A DNA stretch of 33,420 nt from an uncultured Flavobacteriales bacterium (GTDB taxonomy: Bacteria > Bacteroidota > Bacteroidia > Flavobacteriales_G > Salibacteraceae): NCBI GenBank assembly GCA_913057875.1, contig CAJXPI010000007.1, positions 1 to 33,420 of the forward strand, written 5' to 3'. The notes beneath the pieces are model-generated. The model was not told the DNA's origin and ran no database searches. It saw nothing but the letters and a program-made list of their open reading frames with translations. This document shows positions 881-28,832 of the stretch, in pieces; the stretch's first letter is position 1; each line of letters begins with the position of its first letter. The translations under genes were made by a program, and so were the position numbers.

Positions 881-3800
881 CTACCTCTTAACAATTCTCT
901 CCACACTTACCCCCAACTCATTCCTCAAAGTAACTACATACACCCCACTTGCCATTTTGGCCATGTTAATGGTTGTTATTTGGTCTTCCGTACTGGAATG
1001 GTACACTATTGCCCCTGCGCTGTTGGTAATGGTTATTTCTAACGAAACATTGCTTCCTTTGTCAATATGTAACGCATCGCTGGTTGGATTTGGATAAACA
1101 TTCACGCCCAACAATTGTGCTTGTTGTATGCCTACATTCGTTATTGAATAACAAGCCGATGTATCTACACATCCGTTTTGAGTTACCTCTACCTGATAGT
1201 TTCCATTTTGAGTGGCTGTGAATGCCGCATTGGTTTCACCGTTAATTTTACCATTATCGCAATCTATCCATTGATACGTAGCATTGGTGGCTTGAGCGGT
1301 TAGCGTTAGGTAATTTCTTATTACGGCTGTATCCACTTCCAGTAAAGTAAAATCTAAGGTAATTACACTATCACAACCTGCTGCATTTGGAATAGTGAAA
1401 GTAGGACCACTAATAGTTCCACTATACACATTTCCATCTATCCAGGTTATTTCGTTACATGAAGTAACTACATCTGTACCTGCGGTGGGTTGCAATAATG
1501 TAAAATCTAATGTGATTACAGAATCACAACCTGCCGAATTGGCAACGGTATGCGTTGCCGTGTTGTTGCTAGAAGAATAGGTGTTGCCATCTAACCAAGT
1601 GATTGGATCACACGAACTAATTACATCGGTTGCAGTAGTGGATGGTAAAATGGTTAAATCAAGAGTGATAATGCTATCACAACCAAAGGCGTTTACTAGT
1701 GTATCTTTTGCGGTATTGTTATTTGATGAATAGGTTATTCCGTTCCAGGTGTAGGTATCACATGCACTTATGGTTTCTGTTCCGTACGTGGTTACGTTAA
1801 TTGTTAAATTCAAGGTAACCACACTATCACATCCTAAATAATTAGTTAAGGTATGTGTAGCCGTATGGTTACTGGAAGTATACGTATTCCCATCAATCCA
1901 TGTATACGCGCTACAACTGTTAATTACATCTGTACTTGAAGAACTATTAACGGTTAGGTTTAGAGTAACCACGCTATCACACCCGTTGCTATTTCCGCCA
2001 ACAAGCGTATAAATAGCAGTTGTATTATTGGAATAATAGGTATTACCATCTATCCAAACTAGCGAATCACAAACTACATGGGTATCGGTGGCAAAAGTGC
2101 CTTGATGAATTTGGAGGTCTAAGTGCAAAATGCTGTCACATCCAATAGTCGAAGTGAAATTTTGTGTAGCCGTATTATTATCTGTCACATAAATCTGGCC
2201 ATTACTCCACATGTAAAACAAACAGGCCGAAACGTTATCTGTATCATGGTGCGATTGATTTACGGTTAAGTCTAAATTCACAATACTATCGCAACCATGC
2301 CTGTTGGCTAAAGTATCGTATATCATATTTGTACTAGAATAATACGTTACCCCATTTATCCATGTTAAACTGTCACAAACAGTATACACATCGCTCGTAA
2401 ATTCTGGTGCGTGTACTGTTAAATCAAGTATATAAATACTATCACAAACACCAACTACAGTTACCGTATCTCTTGCCGAATGGTTTGTTTGTGTATATGT
2501 ATTTCCATCACGCCAAGTAATAGAATCACAAGTTTCATACGTTTCTACTACGGTGTTAGTTACAGTTAGGTTTAATGTATAAATACTATCGCAACCGTTT
2601 GGAAATGAAACAATGTGCTGGGCAGTATTAGTACTTGCATAATATGTCACGCCATCACGCCAAGTATAACTATCACAGGTGGTAATAGTATCGGTAGCTC
2701 TGCAAGAAGTAAGGATGGTAAGGTTTAGGCTAGCTAAGCTGTCACAGCCCGCTGCGTTTACCGAGGTAAACACAATAGAACTATCTGTTTGCGTATATGT
2801 GTTTCCATCAATCCAGGTATAAGAATCATAGGCGGTAATCGTATCATGTTTAAAAGTTCTTGTACATGCCTCTGCTGCCCCAATTTCTCGAACACCAACA
2901 ATTGGCAAGTTTTGGGCATCACTCAAATCTAAAGGGTCACCTGCATCTATCGCAACTGAAGGCACCATAGGAGCCATTGTTGGAGTAGTTCCACCATTAT
3001 ATGATAAACTACCCAAATTTAATGAGGTGGAATCCACATTTAATTGATCTGTGGAAACAGAATTCAATACCGTACTATCACTAAAAATATTATAGCCTCC
3101 CGAAAAAGTTATTCCTGAATAGAAGGGAGCCATAAAACTCGTGCCATTTTTTGATAAAATACTCCCTGTTATACTTGTAAGGGATGTGCCAATTTGAGTC
3201 GTTCCATTAGAAATTCCACTGTTATTTGTAGGAGAAGTATTGTTCACCAAAGTGGAGTTTTTTATCCATATATTAGCACTTGCAGTGCCAAGAGTGGTAT
3301 TCTGCAAGTTAACAAAATTTTGGATAGCAGCACCTGTATATCCAGTGGGAATAGTACTACTGGATATAGTAGAATTTTTAATGGTTATCCATGACTTATG
3401 GTAAGAGTTAATGTGATTGGATGAATTTGGATCTAACCTAGCATTAATAGCTTGCCCATTAGAATTTGTAATGGTACTATTTTCAAGCAAAATATCTGAT
3501 TGTATTGACCCGGGAAATGCATGGGTAATAGTGTGACCCATTTGAACCTTGACTGCCCCAGTAATTCCATTTCCGTTTCCAGAAAAAAATGAATTCTTAA
3601 TTTCCAATTTAGAATTCAAATCTCCGTAATGCACCGCGCTGTTACCTTGCAGAATAATATCTACACCTATTCCATTATTTTCAAAAGAGGAGTTTGATAA
3701 TAGGGTTTCTATATAGGCTTGATTAGCTGTGTCGGGACGCATAGTAAGCCTACACCCTCGTGTATTACCATTAACATCAGAGCTGTCAATAATGATTCTA

Positions 3801-4480
3801 ATGGTATCCATTCCTTGAATAACCAAACCAGAACCTTCATTATTAGAAATATTGCTGTTTGAAATTTTCACCGTAATCAAATGCACATAGGTGTTTATAA
3901 CTGGCGCATCAATTTGCACCCCATTTCCACGATTGTCACTTATGTTTGAATTATATATTTCTAAGTATGCTTTACTATCATTGTCTGTAACCCCCGTTGG
4001 GTCCATATAAATACCATTTGAATTTTGTCCACCCTTTTGATTATTTTTAATCTCTGAATTTCGAACAATTAAACTATCTACGTGAGCAGTTTGAATACCG
4101 TAGCCAAAAAATGAATTAGATCCGGTAATACTTTTATTATCAAAAACAACTAAAGAGTCAAAAACAACCATAGACACATTACTAACCGTAAAAATATTAT
4201 CTGACGTTATACTAGAAATCACCAGTGTGTCACTCATATTGTAAAGGCCCTTTATGGTTAGAGACTTACTAAAAGAAATACTAGTAGCCAATACGATAGT
4301 ATCGCTACCATTGGCAATTAAATTTGTGTTGAACCGAATAGTATCTCCATTTGAGGCTAATGCTATTTTAGAACGCAAAGAACCTGTTCCGGCATCATTT
4401 AAACTATCTACCACATGCACCGTGGCTTGTGTGGTTATTCCTACTAAAATAAAACTGATTAAAAGGATTAGTTTTTTCAT
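881..4480 (-). CDS. Large secreted beta-helix protein with ten tandem Cys repeats and T9SS type A sorting domain
   Basis: 1199 residues. A Sec signal peptide (MKKLILLISFILVGITTQA, residues 1-19) is followed by about 500 residues of short Asn/Ser-rich strands (NSNISNN, IKNSTISSS) typical of right-handed parallel beta-helix surface proteins. That region ends in a segment like the choice-of-anchor Q domain (YNGGTTPTMAP...AIDAGDP, near residues 495-535). Residues ~539-1048 form ten divergent repeats of about 51 residues with the pattern C(D)S-x-TW-x-DG-x-TY ... GCDS-x-x-x-L-x-LT, each with a Cys pair. Then come an Ig/PKD-like unit with its own Cys and a C-terminal type A sorting domain (VYPNPTSDAL ... 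GVYVVTL, ending VKR). The expected fate is export by Sec, outer-membrane passage by T9SS and surface attachment or release. An adhesin role is inferred; no enzyme motif is visible. Confidence 0.88.
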   Translation of the reverse strand: MKKLILLISFILVGITTQATVHVVDSLNDAGTGSLRSKIALASNGDTIRFNTNLIANGSDTIVLATSISFSKSLTIKGLYNMSDTLVISSITSDNIFTVSNVSMVVFDSLVVFDNKSITGSNSFFGYGIQTAHVDSLIVRNSEIKNNQKGGQNSNGIYMDPTGVTDNDSKAYLEIYNSNISDNRGNGVQIDAPVINTYVHLITVKISNSNISNNEGSGLVIQGMDTIRIIIDSSDVNGNTRGCRLTMRPDTANQAYIETLLSNSSFENNGIGVDIILQGNSAVHYGDLNSKLEIKNSFFSGNGNGITGAVKVQMGHTITHAFPGSIQSDILLENSTITNSNGQAINARLDPNSSNHINSYHKSWITIKNSTISSSTIPTGYTGAAIQNFVNLQNTTLGTASANIWIKNSTLVNNTSPTNNSGISNGTTQIGTSLTSITGSILSKNGTSFMAPFYSGITFSGGYNIFSDSTVLNSVSTDQLNVDSTSLNLGSLSYNGGTTPTMAPMVPSVAIDAGDPLDLSDAQNLPIVGVREIGAAEACTRTFKHDTITAYDSYTWIDGNTYTQTDSSIVFTSVNAAGCDSLASLNLTILTSCRATDTITTCDSYTWRDGVTYYASTNTAQHIVSFPNGCDSIYTLNLTVTNTVVETYETCDSITWRDGNTYTQTNHSARDTVTVVGVCDSIYILDLTVHAPEFTSDVYTVCDSLTWINGVTYYSSTNMIYDTLANRHGCDSIVNLDLTVNQSHHDTDNVSACLFYMWSNGQIYVTDNNTATQNFTSTIGCDSILHLDLQIHQGTFATDTHVVCDSLVWIDGNTYYSNNTTAIYTLVGGNSNGCDSVVTLNLTVNSSSSTDVINSCSAYTWIDGNTYTSSNHTATHTLTNYLGCDSVVTLNLTINVTTYGTETISACDTYTWNGITYSSNNNTAKDTLVNAFGCDSIITLDLTILPSTTATDVISSCDPITWLDGNTYSSSNNTATHTVANSAGCDSVITLDFTLLQPTAGTDVVTSCNEITWIDGNVYSGTISGPTFTIPNAAGCDSVITLDFTLLEVDTAVIRNYLTLTAQATNATYQWIDCDNGKINGETNAAFTATQNGNYQVEVTQNGCVDTSACYSITNVGIQQAQLLGVNVYPNPTSDALHIDKGSNVSLEITITNSAGAIVYHSSTEDQITTINMAKMASGVYVVTLRNELGVSVERIVKR
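1337..2878 (-). repeat. Ten tandem ~153-bp repeats encoding CDS..W.DG..Y / GCDS units
   Basis: Within the large secreted gene, ten consecutive units of about 50-53 codons recur. Conserved positions are CDS(Y/I/L)TW, (I/R)DGNTY and GCDSVVTLNLT. One unit (near 2205-2260) has lost the DS and carries CLFYMW instead. The units have diverged at nucleotide level, so they are old or selected duplications rather than freshly expanded ones. Confidence 0.9.
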
Positions 4481-5621: not shown

Positions 5622-6229
5622 TTATTCCGTCTCGGTACAAATAGACACTTCACTACTAGCCTGATAAGTATAAGAATACCCATCACTTCCCGAAGTGGTG
5701 ATATTTACAGTACTCCCACCAGGAGCAAAAATTGTAAACTCCTCAGCCCCTCCAGCAACCCGCTTATTTTCAGAACCATAAAAAGTTCCATCAGCATTAA
5801 AAATTTCAAATGTAAAAGTAAATTCTTCACCACCGCACTGTCCACATTTTGGGCAAACACAGCCCCTCCGTCAAATACATCAAACCCATTTCTTAACACC
5901 AACGAATCAAAAACCACAAAAGTGGTGGTGTCAACTCTAAACATTCTGTTCGTTCCACCACCTGAAAGAAACAGGGTGTCGGTTGGGGTATATAGCCCTG
6001 TAATGGTGAGTGACTTTGAAAACGCTATTTCCGAATTCAATACAATACTATCACTGCCATTAGCTATTAGGTTGGGATTAAACCGAATGGTATCGCCACT
6101 TACTGCTGTAGCTATTTTAGAGCGTAAGGTACCCGTACCTGAGTTGTTTTTACTAGAAACCACATGCACCGTGGCTTGCGTGGTGATTCCTAATACAATA
6201 AAACTGATTAAAAGGATTAGTTTTTTCAT
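5622..6229 (-). pseudogene. Chimeric, frame-disrupted secreted protein related to the large beta-helix gene
   Basis: The frame from the ATG at 6229 encodes a signal peptide and about 135 residues closely matching the N-terminus of the 881-4480 product, up to NVDSAVVKN (VDSLIVRN in the paralogue). It then degenerates into a Leu-rich tail ending at 5705. In the next frame, open from 5870 to a TAA at 5622-5624, the translation is natural-looking: GGEEFTFTFEIFNADGTF, then AGGAEEFTIFAPGGSTVNI, ending SSEVSICTETE. The two parts meet around 5815-5840. Either a recombination joined a beta-helix N-terminus to an unrelated C-terminus and left a shift, or one base is wrong in the assembly and the true product is about 200 residues. 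No T9SS sorting domain is present. Confidence 0.7.
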
Positions 6230-13154: not shown

Positions 13155-13429
13155 TTTGCCGTTAAAAACATAACCTTAACAAAACGTTTTTGGGCACCCG
13201 AAACTGAAAACTTAACGTTTGAGTTACAGTTACGAAATTCACATTTCTAATATTTGTTCAATTCCGATAACAAAATTGAATATTAGCACAAATTTCAACC
13301 CCGTTTTCAACCTAATTTCCAGCTAAAAGCGTTGCAGTCACTTATAAGAACTCCAAAAACCAAACCTCTCTATTACGCTTTCTGACAGTGAATTAATAAC
13401 AAAAATAGGACAAAGTCCAAACCCATCTT

Positions 13430-13448
13430 ATTTAGAATCATTCTAAAT
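13430..13448. promoter_or_regulatory. Fur/PerR-like 9-1-9 palindrome upstream of the act operon
   Basis: Perfect palindrome ATTTAGAATCATTCTAAAT with nine-base arms around one central C. Its 7-1-7 core TTAGAAT-C-ATTCTAA has the architecture of Fur-superfamily operators (compare the Bacillus PerR box TTATAATnATTATAA). It lies about 55 bp before the actA -7 box. A near copy (17 of 19 bases) occurs at 26542-26560. Confidence 0.6.
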
Positions 13449-13504
13449 TAAAAATCCAATTGTCATATTTTTATCGTTTATTAACAACAATGTGGCCTTT
13501 CTAC

Positions 13505-26536: not shown

Positions 26537-26541
26537 TCCTT

Positions 26542-26560
26542 ATTTAAAATCAATCTAAAT
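26542..26560. promoter_or_regulatory. Second Fur/PerR-like 19-bp box, just before the CbiX-like gene
   Basis: ATTTAAAATCAATCTAAAT agrees with the act-upstream palindrome at 17 of 19 positions. It is extended symmetrically to 25 bp by flanking CTT and AAG (ten of twelve pairs match). It ends five bases before the ATG and covers the predicted transcription start, a repressor-like position. Confidence 0.6.
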
Positions 26561-26565
26561 AAGAC

Positions 26566-27468
26566 ATGAGCAAAATTATATACCTATTCGCATTTTCCCT
26601 ATTACTGATAAGCTGTGGAGAACAGGAACAAGAAACAAGTACTTCTGCCGAAGGAAAGAAAATTGGCGTACTTATCGTAAATCATGGTTCAGTAGCTGAA
26701 TCATGGAGAAACCAATTACTAGACATTGAAAAACATGTAGAGCCTGCCCTATTGGCCAATGAAAAGATTTCTGATGTAAAAACCGCTTTCATGGAATACA
26801 CCGAGCCATCTATAGCTACCCGAATGAAGGAATTTGATGAAGAAGGGTATGATGAAGTGGTAGTGGTACCGGTTTTCTTAACCGTGAGTTCTCATTATTC
26901 ACATGATATACCAGTAATTGTAGGTTTAAGTGCAGATCCTAAAATCAAGGAACAATTGAAAAAAGAAAAGATTGAAGTATACCGTTCTAAAGCCAAAGTA
27001 ACTATTGCTCCACCATTAGACTATTCTTCTATTCTAAAGAAAAACATTGAACGCAGAGTACAAGCATTAAGCGAGAATCCTGAAAACGAAGGCGTACTAT
27101 TAGTGGCCTATGGCGACCAACAATACAACCAGCAATGGGAAGAAATGGTAGAAGAAATTGGGAAATACTTAAAAATAAAAACGGGGCATAATGACATTGC
27201 GTACGCATGGTGTGGCCATCTAGTACATTACTCGCAAGAGCCTACCAAGAACGGAATTCTGAAATTACAAGAGCTCAACGACAACGTAATTGTGATTCCG
27301 GTATTGATTGCAAATGATCCGTATTTCCAAAAAGACATTATTCAAGGAGCGGTAGATGCCGTTGCTGTAGATGGAAACGTAAAATACATTCAAGACGCTA
27401 TTTTACCGGATGAGCCGCTAAATAAATGGGTAACTGATATTGCGATTAAAACCGCTGAATCACTTTAG
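26566..27468 (+). CDS. CbiX/CbiK-like tetrapyrrole chelatase as an exported lipoprotein
   Basis: 300 residues. The N-terminus MSKIIYLFAFSLLLISC is a lipoprotein signal with Cys17. Two CbiX-type halves follow. The first has IGVLIVNHGSVAESW, with His40 at the position of the metal-binding His, and VVVVPVFLTVSSHYSHDIP with further His. The second has LLVAYGDQQYNQQW, where the equivalent His is replaced by Tyr, then IPVLIANDPYFQKDI. Class II chelatases insert Co, Ni or Fe into sirohydrochlorin-type rings in the cytoplasm, so a membrane-anchored exported version is unexpected. Metal or tetrapyrrole handling outside the cytoplasm is inferred. The stop overlaps the start of the next gene by one base. 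Confidence 0.78.
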   Translation: MSKIIYLFAFSLLLISCGEQEQETSTSAEGKKIGVLIVNHGSVAESWRNQLLDIEKHVEPALLANEKISDVKTAFMEYTEPSIATRMKEFDEEGYDEVVVVPVFLTVSSHYSHDIPVIVGLSADPKIKEQLKKEKIEVYRSKAKVTIAPPLDYSSILKKNIERRVQALSENPENEGVLLVAYGDQQYNQQWEEMVEEIGKYLKIKTGHNDIAYAWCGHLVHYSQEPTKNGILKLQELNDNVIVIPVLIANDPYFQKDIIQGAVDAVAVDGNVKYIQDAILPDEPLNKWVTDIAIKTAESL

Positions 27469-28832
27469 TGAAATCCCTAAAAAATATACCATTAAAAAAA
27501 GCACTGACTACCTTGATAGTCGGTGCATTTTTTTTATTCTTTTGGATAAATGGGCCGCTTCAATTCACCGAAGTATTGGCGCATTTAGACCATATAGAAA
27601 CCCCATACTCGCAACCCAAAATTGTTGGCCAGCAAAAAGATACTAAAACCTACGGAGAAGTAGGTGAAGTAGAAACCCATGGCGAAGGTTGGCAACTCCT
27701 ACACAAAAACAACCAGAAAGAAACTGCAAATGTTGGCATGATTCAAATGGAGGAAGACCAATTGATCTTCTCAGATGAACATGCACAAACCCTTGAAAAA
27801 CATGTGGCGCTCTTACTGGATGGCAAACTAGAGGTTACTCCCAAAACCAATGAACACCTCTTGTACCTACAGGTAAAACGCAGCGGAGAGTTGTTCTACT
27901 ATTTTGAGAGTGTACCTACAATCACCCATATCAAAGGATATGCGGGTCCTATTAATATTGGCGTATTGCTCAATCAAAATGGCGAAATTGAAATGCTGCA
28001 ACATGTGAGCTCTAAAGAAACGGAGAGTTACCTACATAAAATTCAAAAAGCGGGTTACTACCATTCCTTTATTGGAATGCCCATTGAAAACACCCATGAT
28101 ATTGATGCCGTTTCGGGGGCTACCTTAACTACGGTATCCATAGCACAAACGGCTTCTGAAATTACCCAATTATTGGGCAATGATTTTTCGGAAACGTTAG
28201 ATGAAGATGTATTGATTTCTTCTTTTGAAGTGACGGCTTCCAATACCCTAACCTGGATCATTCATATCACCCTAATTGCGCTTCTGTTTACTTACGGCAT
28301 TCAAAAAAAATACAAGAAGAGCAAAAGAGATATTAGAATACTCAGTGTAGTGAGTGTACTTTACATTGGGTTCTTTATGAACAGTTCTTTTACCTATGTA
28401 AGTTTCATACATCCATTCTTAGGAACCGCTTTATCTCCGTTAATTGCTTTTTACGCTCTTTTTAGCTTGCTAGGAGCTATTTGGGGACATAATATATATT
28501 GTTCATACGTTTGTCCGTTTGGACACGCTCAGCGTCTTGCTTTGCAAGCATCCAATAAAAGGTTTACGGCTAAGTTCTTTTTAAGTAACAAATGGGTGGG
28601 ACACATTAGAAATGGCTTGGCATTAATTTTAGTAGTAGGCATACTTTTAGGAATAAGATCATGGGGGAATTTTGAAGTATTCCCAGACCTTTTTGGAATG
28701 GAGTTTAACTCGCTATGGTTTGGTATCTCCATTCTTATTATTCTAGTAAACTTACGCTACCCTTTTATTTGGTGTCGAATTGCTTGTCCTACGGGTGCTG
28801 TACTGGATGGGATTAGTAAGGGGTGTAAATAA
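27468..28832 (+). CDS. NosR-like membrane protein with flavinylated FMN-binding domain and 4Fe-4S motifs
   Basis: 454 residues, GTG start overlapping the upstream TAG. An N-terminal helix (~10-27) is followed by an extracytoplasmic region whose FMN-binding domain ends in DAVSGATLTT; by family knowledge Thr219 would carry covalent FMN added by ApbE. About five membrane helices follow, with CSYVCPFG (Cys345, Cys349) and CRIACPTG (Cys436, Cys440), the CxxxCP pairs of the NosR/NapH polyferredoxin type. The soluble CxxCxxC ferredoxin module of full NosR is absent; the protein ends at KGCK. The likely job is moving electrons through the inner membrane to an extracytoplasmic acceptor, probably linked to the CbiX-like partner. 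Confidence 0.85.
   Translation: MKSLKNIPLKKALTTLIVGAFFLFFWINGPLQFTEVLAHLDHIETPYSQPKIVGQQKDTKTYGEVGEVETHGEGWQLLHKNNQKETANVGMIQMEEDQLIFSDEHAQTLEKHVALLLDGKLEVTPKTNEHLLYLQVKRSGELFYYFESVPTITHIKGYAGPINIGVLLNQNGEIEMLQHVSSKETESYLHKIQKAGYYHSFIGMPIENTHDIDAVSGATLTTVSIAQTASEITQLLGNDFSETLDEDVLISSFEVTASNTLTWIIHITLIALLFTYGIQKKYKKSKRDIRILSVVSVLYIGFFMNSSFTYVSFIHPFLGTALSPLIAFYALFSLLGAIWGHNIYCSYVCPFGHAQRLALQASNKRFTAKFFLSNKWVGHIRNGLALILVVGILLGIRSWGNFEVFPDLFGMEFNSLWFGISILIILVNLRYPFIWCRIACPTGAVLDGISKGCK

Follow-up and report, generated by a model that had tools for sequence, protein, structure and literature searches.

A chelatase-like lipoprotein gene coupled to the gene of a flavin-binding membrane protein: a candidate module for periplasmic heme de-metallation in Bacteroidota and Gammaproteobacteria

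We analysed a stretch of 33,420 nucleotides (in the following, the window) from contig CAJXPI010000007.1 of an uncultured Flavobacteriales bacterium of the Salibacteraceae (assembly GCA_913057875.1), and in it a pair of adjoining genes on the forward strand. The first encodes a CbiX-like lipoprotein of 300 amino acids (26566-27468), the second a membrane protein of 454 amino acids (27468-28832, GTG start) that we take, for the reasons given below, to be an electron carrier of the NapH/PceC type. The two open reading frames overlap by one base, shared by the TAG stop codon of the first and the GTG of the second. An earlier reading of the bare letters (the sequence-only reading) had described both frames with these coordinates and this overlap, all of which we find as it said, and had suggested that the two products release or insert a metal outside the cytoplasm.

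The CbiX-like protein matches the Pfam family CbiX (PF01903) with 62.9 bits against a cut-off of 22 (E = 4e-17). It begins with a lipoprotein signal peptide (26566-26616, forward strand) that can be read directly and that ends in the lipobox cysteine Cys17 (LISC); this residue is nearly invariant among 24 homologues. The alignment places a metal site in the N-terminal half (26683-26895), formed by H40 (26683-26685), E77 (26794-26796) and H110 (26893-26895). All three residues are unchanged throughout the 36 family members compared, the distant branch among them, and in a profile alignment H40 and H110 match the metal histidines of CfbA and SirB. The C-terminal half has a signature of its own (27109-27219), recognised from conservation and from an internal repeat alignment: Y182 (27109-27111) and the motif W215-C216-x-H218, whose named residues are again the same in all 36 members. 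In the internal repeat alignment (P = 3.9e-6) H40 pairs with Y182, and C216 and H218 stand beside the mate of E77, so that the invariant set of the C-terminal half should face the metal site. Judging from the alignments, this Tyr182/Trp-Cys-x-His set is distinctive; axial ligation of heme is one possibility for its role.

The sequence-only reading had noticed the tyrosine as well (AYG in place of AHG) and took the loss of the second-half histidine as a sign of altered chemistry. The substitution is real; the conclusion is not supported by it, since SirB of Bacillus subtilis is asymmetric too: its metal site (His10/Glu43/His76) lies in the N-terminal half only, and in the second half the corresponding positions are taken by Arg134 and Leu200 (PMC11301274). 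The counterparts of that site, H40, E77 and H110, are retained in the lipoprotein of the window. We have therefore rejected the missing histidine as sole evidence for a new chemistry.

In an AlphaFold2 model (predicted local distance difference test, pLDDT, 84.6) the lipoprotein adopts what looks like the two-domain fold of class II chelatases. Its best fold match in the PDB, B. subtilis SirB, spans the entire protein (E = 3e-8); next come the ferrochelatase HemH and then a periplasmic CbiK (2xvz). These matches have template modelling scores of 0.56-0.68 at a root-mean-square deviation of about 5.5 Å, which makes the domain arrangement uncertain. At the level of sequence, CbiX was the only Pfam family found at E <= 1e-3, the Pfam scan found no CobN-Mg_chel domain in the lipoprotein, and the sequence-profile search returned no CbiK chain. 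The best NCBIfam models are sirohydrochlorin nickelochelatases, as one would expect from a sirohydrochlorin or cobalt chelatase of the biosynthetic type that works in the periplasm because it is mis-sorted or moonlighting. However, the match reaches 80.7 bits where the curated cut-off is 120, which is far below it, the lipobox is conserved, the gene is strictly linked to membrane electron carriers, and no cobalamin or siroheme genes were recognised next door, all of which makes such an enzyme extremely improbable here. By its own statement, the sequence-only reading would be refuted if homologues stood next to genes of cobalamin or siroheme biosynthesis and lacked the membrane partner; among the identified genes of the 23 close loci described below there is no such case.

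The second gene encodes a protein with the Pfam domains FMN_bind (E = 5e-8; FMN, flavin mononucleotide) and Fer4_5 (1e-5). FMN_bind (PF04205) covers residues 157-228 (27936-28151, forward strand), and this region gives profile matches to RnfG chains. Within it, conservation and the motif DAVSGAT point to Thr219 (28122-28124) as the site of a covalently bound FMN; the residue is unchanged in 19 of 19 homologues, and the genome of the window has one ApbE gene. Two CX3CP motifs follow (C345-x3-C349-P and C436-x3-C440-P, 28500-28790), and their four cysteines and both prolines are unchanged in the 19 sequences. Hydropathy and charge predict an N-terminal transmembrane helix, a large acidic FMN domain outside the cytoplasm and five further transmembrane helices, with both CX3CP motifs on the cytoplasmic side. 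The protein had been described as a "NosR-like FMN/4Fe-4S" protein, and FMN_bind and Fer4_5 are indeed present. On the other hand, with five cysteines in total and only two CX3CP motifs it lacks the ferredoxin domain that NosR has at its C-terminus, and its match to the NosR model reaches 33 bits where the cut-off is 1000. "NapH/PceC-like" is a better description: with FMN_bind carrying D-x-x-S-G-A-T and a multi-transmembrane domain carrying CX3CP (PF12801), the protein appears to belong to the "NapH-like" class, with an architecture like that of PceC (PMC8238504).

A scan of 85,000 genomes yielded 23 homologous loci, which span the Flavobacteriales, other Bacteroidia and the Gammaproteobacteria (sponge-symbiotic Methylococcales, Thiotrichales, Chromatiaceae). 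Wherever downstream sequence is available (21 of 21 loci, from both Bacteroidota and Gammaproteobacteria), the FMN gene lies directly 3' of the cbiX-like gene. With two intact gene calls, the gap measures between -35 and +14 nucleotides; a few copies, from drafts or with a frameshift, have a split or shortened FMN gene. This pairing is far beyond chance. Furthermore, the distances of the two proteins are correlated over 20 pairs (Mantel rho = 0.86), and also within the Bacteroidota alone (rho = 0.66), and in neither case did any of 999 permutations reach the observed value, which argues that the two proteins have travelled together. Their distribution is patchy: the pair occurs in 4 of 42 genomes of the order, and strong hits are found in about 9 of 392 genomes of the phylum and in 2 of 369 Gammaproteobacteria. 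We also considered a wider spread among the Gammaproteobacteria and dropped it, as only the two already known hits among the 369 are strong; the 48 others are weak (at most 50 bits) and mostly cover the region of the N-terminal half only, as small CbiX-type proteins would. Maribacter polysiphoniae DSM 23514, a named strain, carries one of the pairs (locus L016). A Thiotrichales genome has a diverged second cbiX-like copy after the FMN gene (L021:6857-9667).

The metal site is also retained in more distantly related proteins from further families of the Bacteroidota (L073-L079; E = 1e-83 to 1e-111), none of which adjoins the FMN protein. Several of them adjoin a PepSY_TM_like_2 protein of 187 amino acids or a PepSY_TM protein of 488 amino acids, together with TonB receptors; f19 and f16 have HmuY too, and f19 an iron-dependent repressor as well. 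At L075 the order is TonB receptor, HmuY, CbiX, with no visible carrier. PepSY proteins are transmembrane electron carriers that have been linked to extracytosolic iron reduction (PMC8238504). Since carriers that are not homologous are coupled to one and the same lipoprotein family, the supply of electrons seems to matter to the work of the lipoprotein.

Some related arrangements should be mentioned here. At L076 and L077, with TonB receptor genes nearby, two tandem cbiX-like lipoprotein genes flank a PepSY_TM_like_2 gene, and the second of the two has diverged strongly; L077 also has exbB/exbD-like genes in the vicinity. Exported CbiX-like proteins of f27 and f20 were tried as members of the family and rejected, as H110 and E77 are missing and their tree branch is very long. 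A very divergent second family of exported CbiX-like proteins (L085-L091) is without a clear lipobox and keeps the histidine in both half-motifs, while E77 and H110 are lost. Its genes adjoin TonB receptor genes, at L085, L086, L087, L088, L089 and L090 they adjoin HmuY, and several of the loci have PepSY_TM and DtxR-type regulators (at L091 PepSY_TM is directly adjoining).

The neighbours of the pair were clustered and scanned. A TonB-dependent receptor is present at 17 of the 23 loci and a HmuY-family heme-binding protein at 15; together with the pairing at 21 of 21 loci, this is the co-occurrence that the sequence-only reading had proposed as a check. The arrangement seen most often consists of an hmuY whose product has a type IX secretion tail, cbiX, the FMN gene, in several operons inserted genes for a hemerythrin-like and a DUF6686 protein, a TonB receptor gene and a second hmuY (lipoprotein); it is found at L003, L004, L008, L009, L023 and L081 (genome G015, of the family of the window). 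The inserts (L004:10320-11260, L009:8580-9534, L016:11514-12597), of which the DUF6686 protein contains cysteines, are possible iron-handling accessories. The genome of the window has a hmu-type uptake system of HmuY and TonB receptor as well, not in the same operon as the pair: the pair stands alone, and hmuY, a TonB receptor gene, feoA, feoB and another hmuY follow one another on contig C2. G008, of the same genus, is split likewise, with hmuY, TonB receptor gene, feoA and feoB elsewhere. Unlike the genomes of that genus (G000 and G008), G015 has the pair in one operon with the TonB receptor and hmuY genes.

HmuY is present in 20 of 20 Bacteroidota genomes that bear the pair (16 behind the loci, and G000, G008, G009 and G015), compared with a background of 137 of 392 genomes of the phylum (35%) and 15 of 38 members of the order without the pair. 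Note that shared ancestry inflates the 20 of 20; the co-localisation adds to the evidence. FRAPSLKELYFxFVDINHNIxGNxDL, that is, a FRAP...His...N(x)xL box, is present in most of the aligned receptors, and we take FRAP...His...GNxxL to be a signature of heme receptors. Moreover, in the majority of the HMUYlip-type HmuY lipoproteins the lipobox is followed by C-x-[KR]-[DE]-[DE], presumably a surface-export type signal, and this motif was found in no CbiX lipoprotein examined. The difference fits a HmuY on the surface and a CbiX-like protein that faces the periplasm.

The ligand could also be a different one. The pair might act on some other iron or cobalt ligand imported by TonB receptors, such as a ferric siderophore, cobalamin or another tetrapyrrole, whose metal is freed by reduction; flavin- and PepSY-linked reductases have been tied to siderophore iron (PMC8238504), and four Gammaproteobacterial genomes and those of f21 are without HmuY, with TonB receptors mostly present. 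Yet HmuY accompanies the pair in every one of the Bacteroidota genomes, the receptors have the FRAP-His-GNxxL box, and a siderophore would not call for a tetrapyrrole-chelatase fold, so that we consider another ligand unlikely.

The cbiX-like gene has, three nucleotides ahead of its start codon, the sequence TTATTTAAAATCAATCTAAATAA (26540-26562), a palindrome of the Fur/PerR type with a 7-1-7 inverted repeat. This palindrome differs at 2 positions from TTATTTAGAATNATTCTAAATAA, for which 0.00 matches are expected in the window. At 16 of 19 evaluable Bacteroidota loci the 23-bp palindrome TTATTTAGAATNATTCTAAATAA closely precedes cbiX or, where cbiX does not come first, its operon, and it also stands before the hmuY operons of 4 of 5 examined members of the order without cbiX; at this score, 2.4 sites would be expected in 559 kb. 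Its core, TTAGAATNATTCTAA, has what we take to be the 7-1-7 form of Fur/PerR boxes. Another operator candidate upstream of cbiX, ACACTTTGTAAGTGT, was seen in the window's own sequence only and was dropped.

Besides the copy before the ATG of cbiX, the window holds a second one where none is expected (13428-13450, one mismatch), about 120 bp before the operon of the alternative complex III. This suggests that the respiratory complex genes and the cbiX-FMN pair may share an iron-type regulator. It would also agree with a pair that serves the respiration, or the maturation, of the adjoining alternative complex III and cytochrome oxidase, for example by inserting a metal or heme outside the cytoplasm, as the pair lies directly downstream of the act and cox genes in the window and in G008. 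Among the loci examined, however, this neighbourhood is confined to the genus; the other loci have no adjoining act or cox genes, and most of them have TonB receptor or HmuY genes. We regard a respiratory role as very unlikely.

The gene structure, the conservation, the predicted fold, the metal-site residues, the heme-uptake context, the operator, and the hmuY-TonB receptor-feoAB operon and ApbE gene of the same genome are the observations from which we infer that heme is the substrate, in which direction the reaction runs, which path the electrons take, that the FMN is covalently bound and where the lipoprotein resides. In our view the pair is, with moderate confidence, a periplasmic, electron-driven heme de-metallation module of the HmuY/TonB route that feeds FeoAB, and the lipoprotein its proposed heme de-metallase. 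Heme would be captured by secreted and surface HmuY-family proteins, brought into the periplasm by the TonB receptor and bound there between the two domains of the class II chelatase-like lipoprotein. Electrons would cross the inner membrane by way of the helices that bear the CX3CP motifs to the FMN on Thr219, and the FMN protein would reduce the heme iron to Fe(II), either directly or in complex with the lipoprotein. The reduced and weakly held iron could then be pulled out by H40, E77 and H110, as in a ferrochelatase-like reaction that runs backwards, and the Fe(II) would be imported by FeoAB. Such a route has parallels: in Bacteroides fragilis heme iron is removed in the periplasm and FeoAB is required (PMC6460266), and dechelation by HmuS requires a reductant (PMC12583661). 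The sequence-only idea of an electron-coupled metal chemistry on a heme-type ligand outside the cytoplasm is supported by the context, and its other half, metal insertion, is unsupported.

The context supports the handling of heme, not de-metallation as such, and it would also suit a lipoprotein that is a heme chaperone or relay without chelatase activity, with the FMN protein keeping the heme reduced for an importer or for cytochrome maturation and the iron being removed elsewhere. The invariant Tyr/Trp-Cys-x-His of the C-terminal half could then provide axial heme ligands. A pure heme carrier, however, does not need the complete H40/E77/H110 site that all 36 members have kept, even across the partner swaps, and feoAB inside the genome's own hmuY operon fits a release of Fe(II) in the periplasm; a mere chaperone therefore seems rather unlikely to us.

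Several observations weigh against the de-metallation module. We were not able to find a clear copy of the palindrome before the hmuY-TonB receptor-feoAB operon of the window's own genome, and in the genus of the window the pair adjoins the genes of alternative complex III and cox, away from those of the TonB receptor and HmuY. HmuY is absent from 4 of 6 Gammaproteobacterial genomes, and the lipoprotein sorting rules of the Gammaproteobacteria would bring the protein to the outer membrane, away from the flavin domain at the inner membrane. Class II chelatases normally insert metal, and the predicted structure of the FMN protein reaches a pLDDT of 66.5, which means low confidence. Finally, the 15 of 38 members of the order that have HmuY without the pair have no CobN either and need another heme route. 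The genome of the window itself has no CobN/HmuS homologue; a mutual exclusion of the pair and HmuS was considered and set aside, since the comparison is uninformative in this order, where no member has CobN, and since a CobN homologue does occur alongside the pair in three Bacteroidota genomes.

With regard to other routes, a gene for DUF6607 or a similar one is found in 3 of 5 examined members of the order that have hmuY and neither cbiX nor CobN. It lies near hmuY-TonB receptor operons (L096:4390-5370, L099:12421-13365, L100:14110-15027); PF20311 is confirmed for L096 and L099, and the L100 gene was assigned by resemblance. The DUF6607 protein is a candidate for processing heme in another way; at L100 the hmuY operon also has the gene of a free FMN_bind protein nearby. 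Elsewhere in the window, an open reading frame of 174 amino acids (5705-6229) repeats the N-terminus of a repeat-rich secreted protein of 1199 amino acids (881-4480) and looks like a truncated duplicate.

Parts of this picture are already known. The sequence-only reading had regarded a chelatase analogue of class II as a novelty; it was preceded by IhtB, an exported class II chelatase-like protein in a heme context (PMC10913741), and by structures of periplasmic CbiK (2xvz), just as flavinylated NapH-like carriers are established (PMC8238504). Searches of the literature on CbiX with TonB or heme, and on HmuY with FMN-binding, gave no titles or abstracts that describe a strict pairing of chelatase and flavin protein in heme-uptake loci. 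We see about an even chance that the pair stands for an undescribed, HmuS-independent way of iron removal, in which a class II chelatase runs in reverse on electrons from a covalent flavin, and in which the carrier (FMN/CX3CP or PepSY) can be exchanged while the lipoprotein is kept. The HmuS papers leave open how electrons are transferred in vivo and name membrane flavoproteins as a possibility (PMC13227078, PMC12583661), and for most flavinylated carriers of the NapH-like class the reaction that they serve has yet to be identified (PMC8238504). The cbiX-FMN pair joins these two questions in one testable unit. If the proposal is true, the pair is a candidate for the missing electron source of periplasmic heme de-metallation, and the lipoprotein would be a heme de-metallase of a second type, whose electron supply is genetically encoded.

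Among the known systems, the periplasmic CbiK of Desulfovibrio vulgaris (2xvz, 2xvx) is likewise an exported class II chelatase of similar fold, but it belongs to the CbiK family, handles cobalt and was matched by fold only, not by sequence profile. We know of no TonB, HmuY or flavin partner of it. SirB/CbiX_L and CfbA (CbiX_S) share PF01903, the two-domain fold and the His-Glu-His of the N-terminal half (PMC11301274); they are cytoplasmic and insert metal into sirohydrochlorin, whereas the protein described here is exported, has Tyr182/WCxH in its C-terminal half and stands in a different gene context. The carriers NosR and PceC have the same N-terminal extracytosolic FMN_bind domain and multi-transmembrane CX3CP domain (PMC8238504), but our protein lacks the ferredoxin domain of NosR, and its partner is a chelatase-like lipoprotein rather than an enzyme of N2O, organohalide, nitrite or alcohol metabolism. 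Transmembrane electron carriers of the PepSY_TM/FoxB-VciB iron reductase type adjoin the lipoprotein gene in several of the distant relatives; such reductases are heme-based and not homologous to the FMN/CX3CP protein. IhtB/FetB of Porphyromonas gingivalis is also a chelatase-like lipoprotein of a TonB heme locus with a proposed role in heme iron removal (PMC10913741); it is CbiK-like and its locus is described with an ABC transporter, while the lipoprotein of the pair is CbiX and not CbiK by Pfam and has a flavin partner. HmuS, in turn, works with HmuY and a TonB receptor, is periplasmic, frees Fe(II) from heme for FeoAB and needs a reductant (PMC12583661, PMC13227078), as we propose for the pair. 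However, HmuS is a large membrane protein of the class I, CobN type, whereas here we find a class II lipoprotein of about 300 amino acids that comes with an electron carrier of its own.

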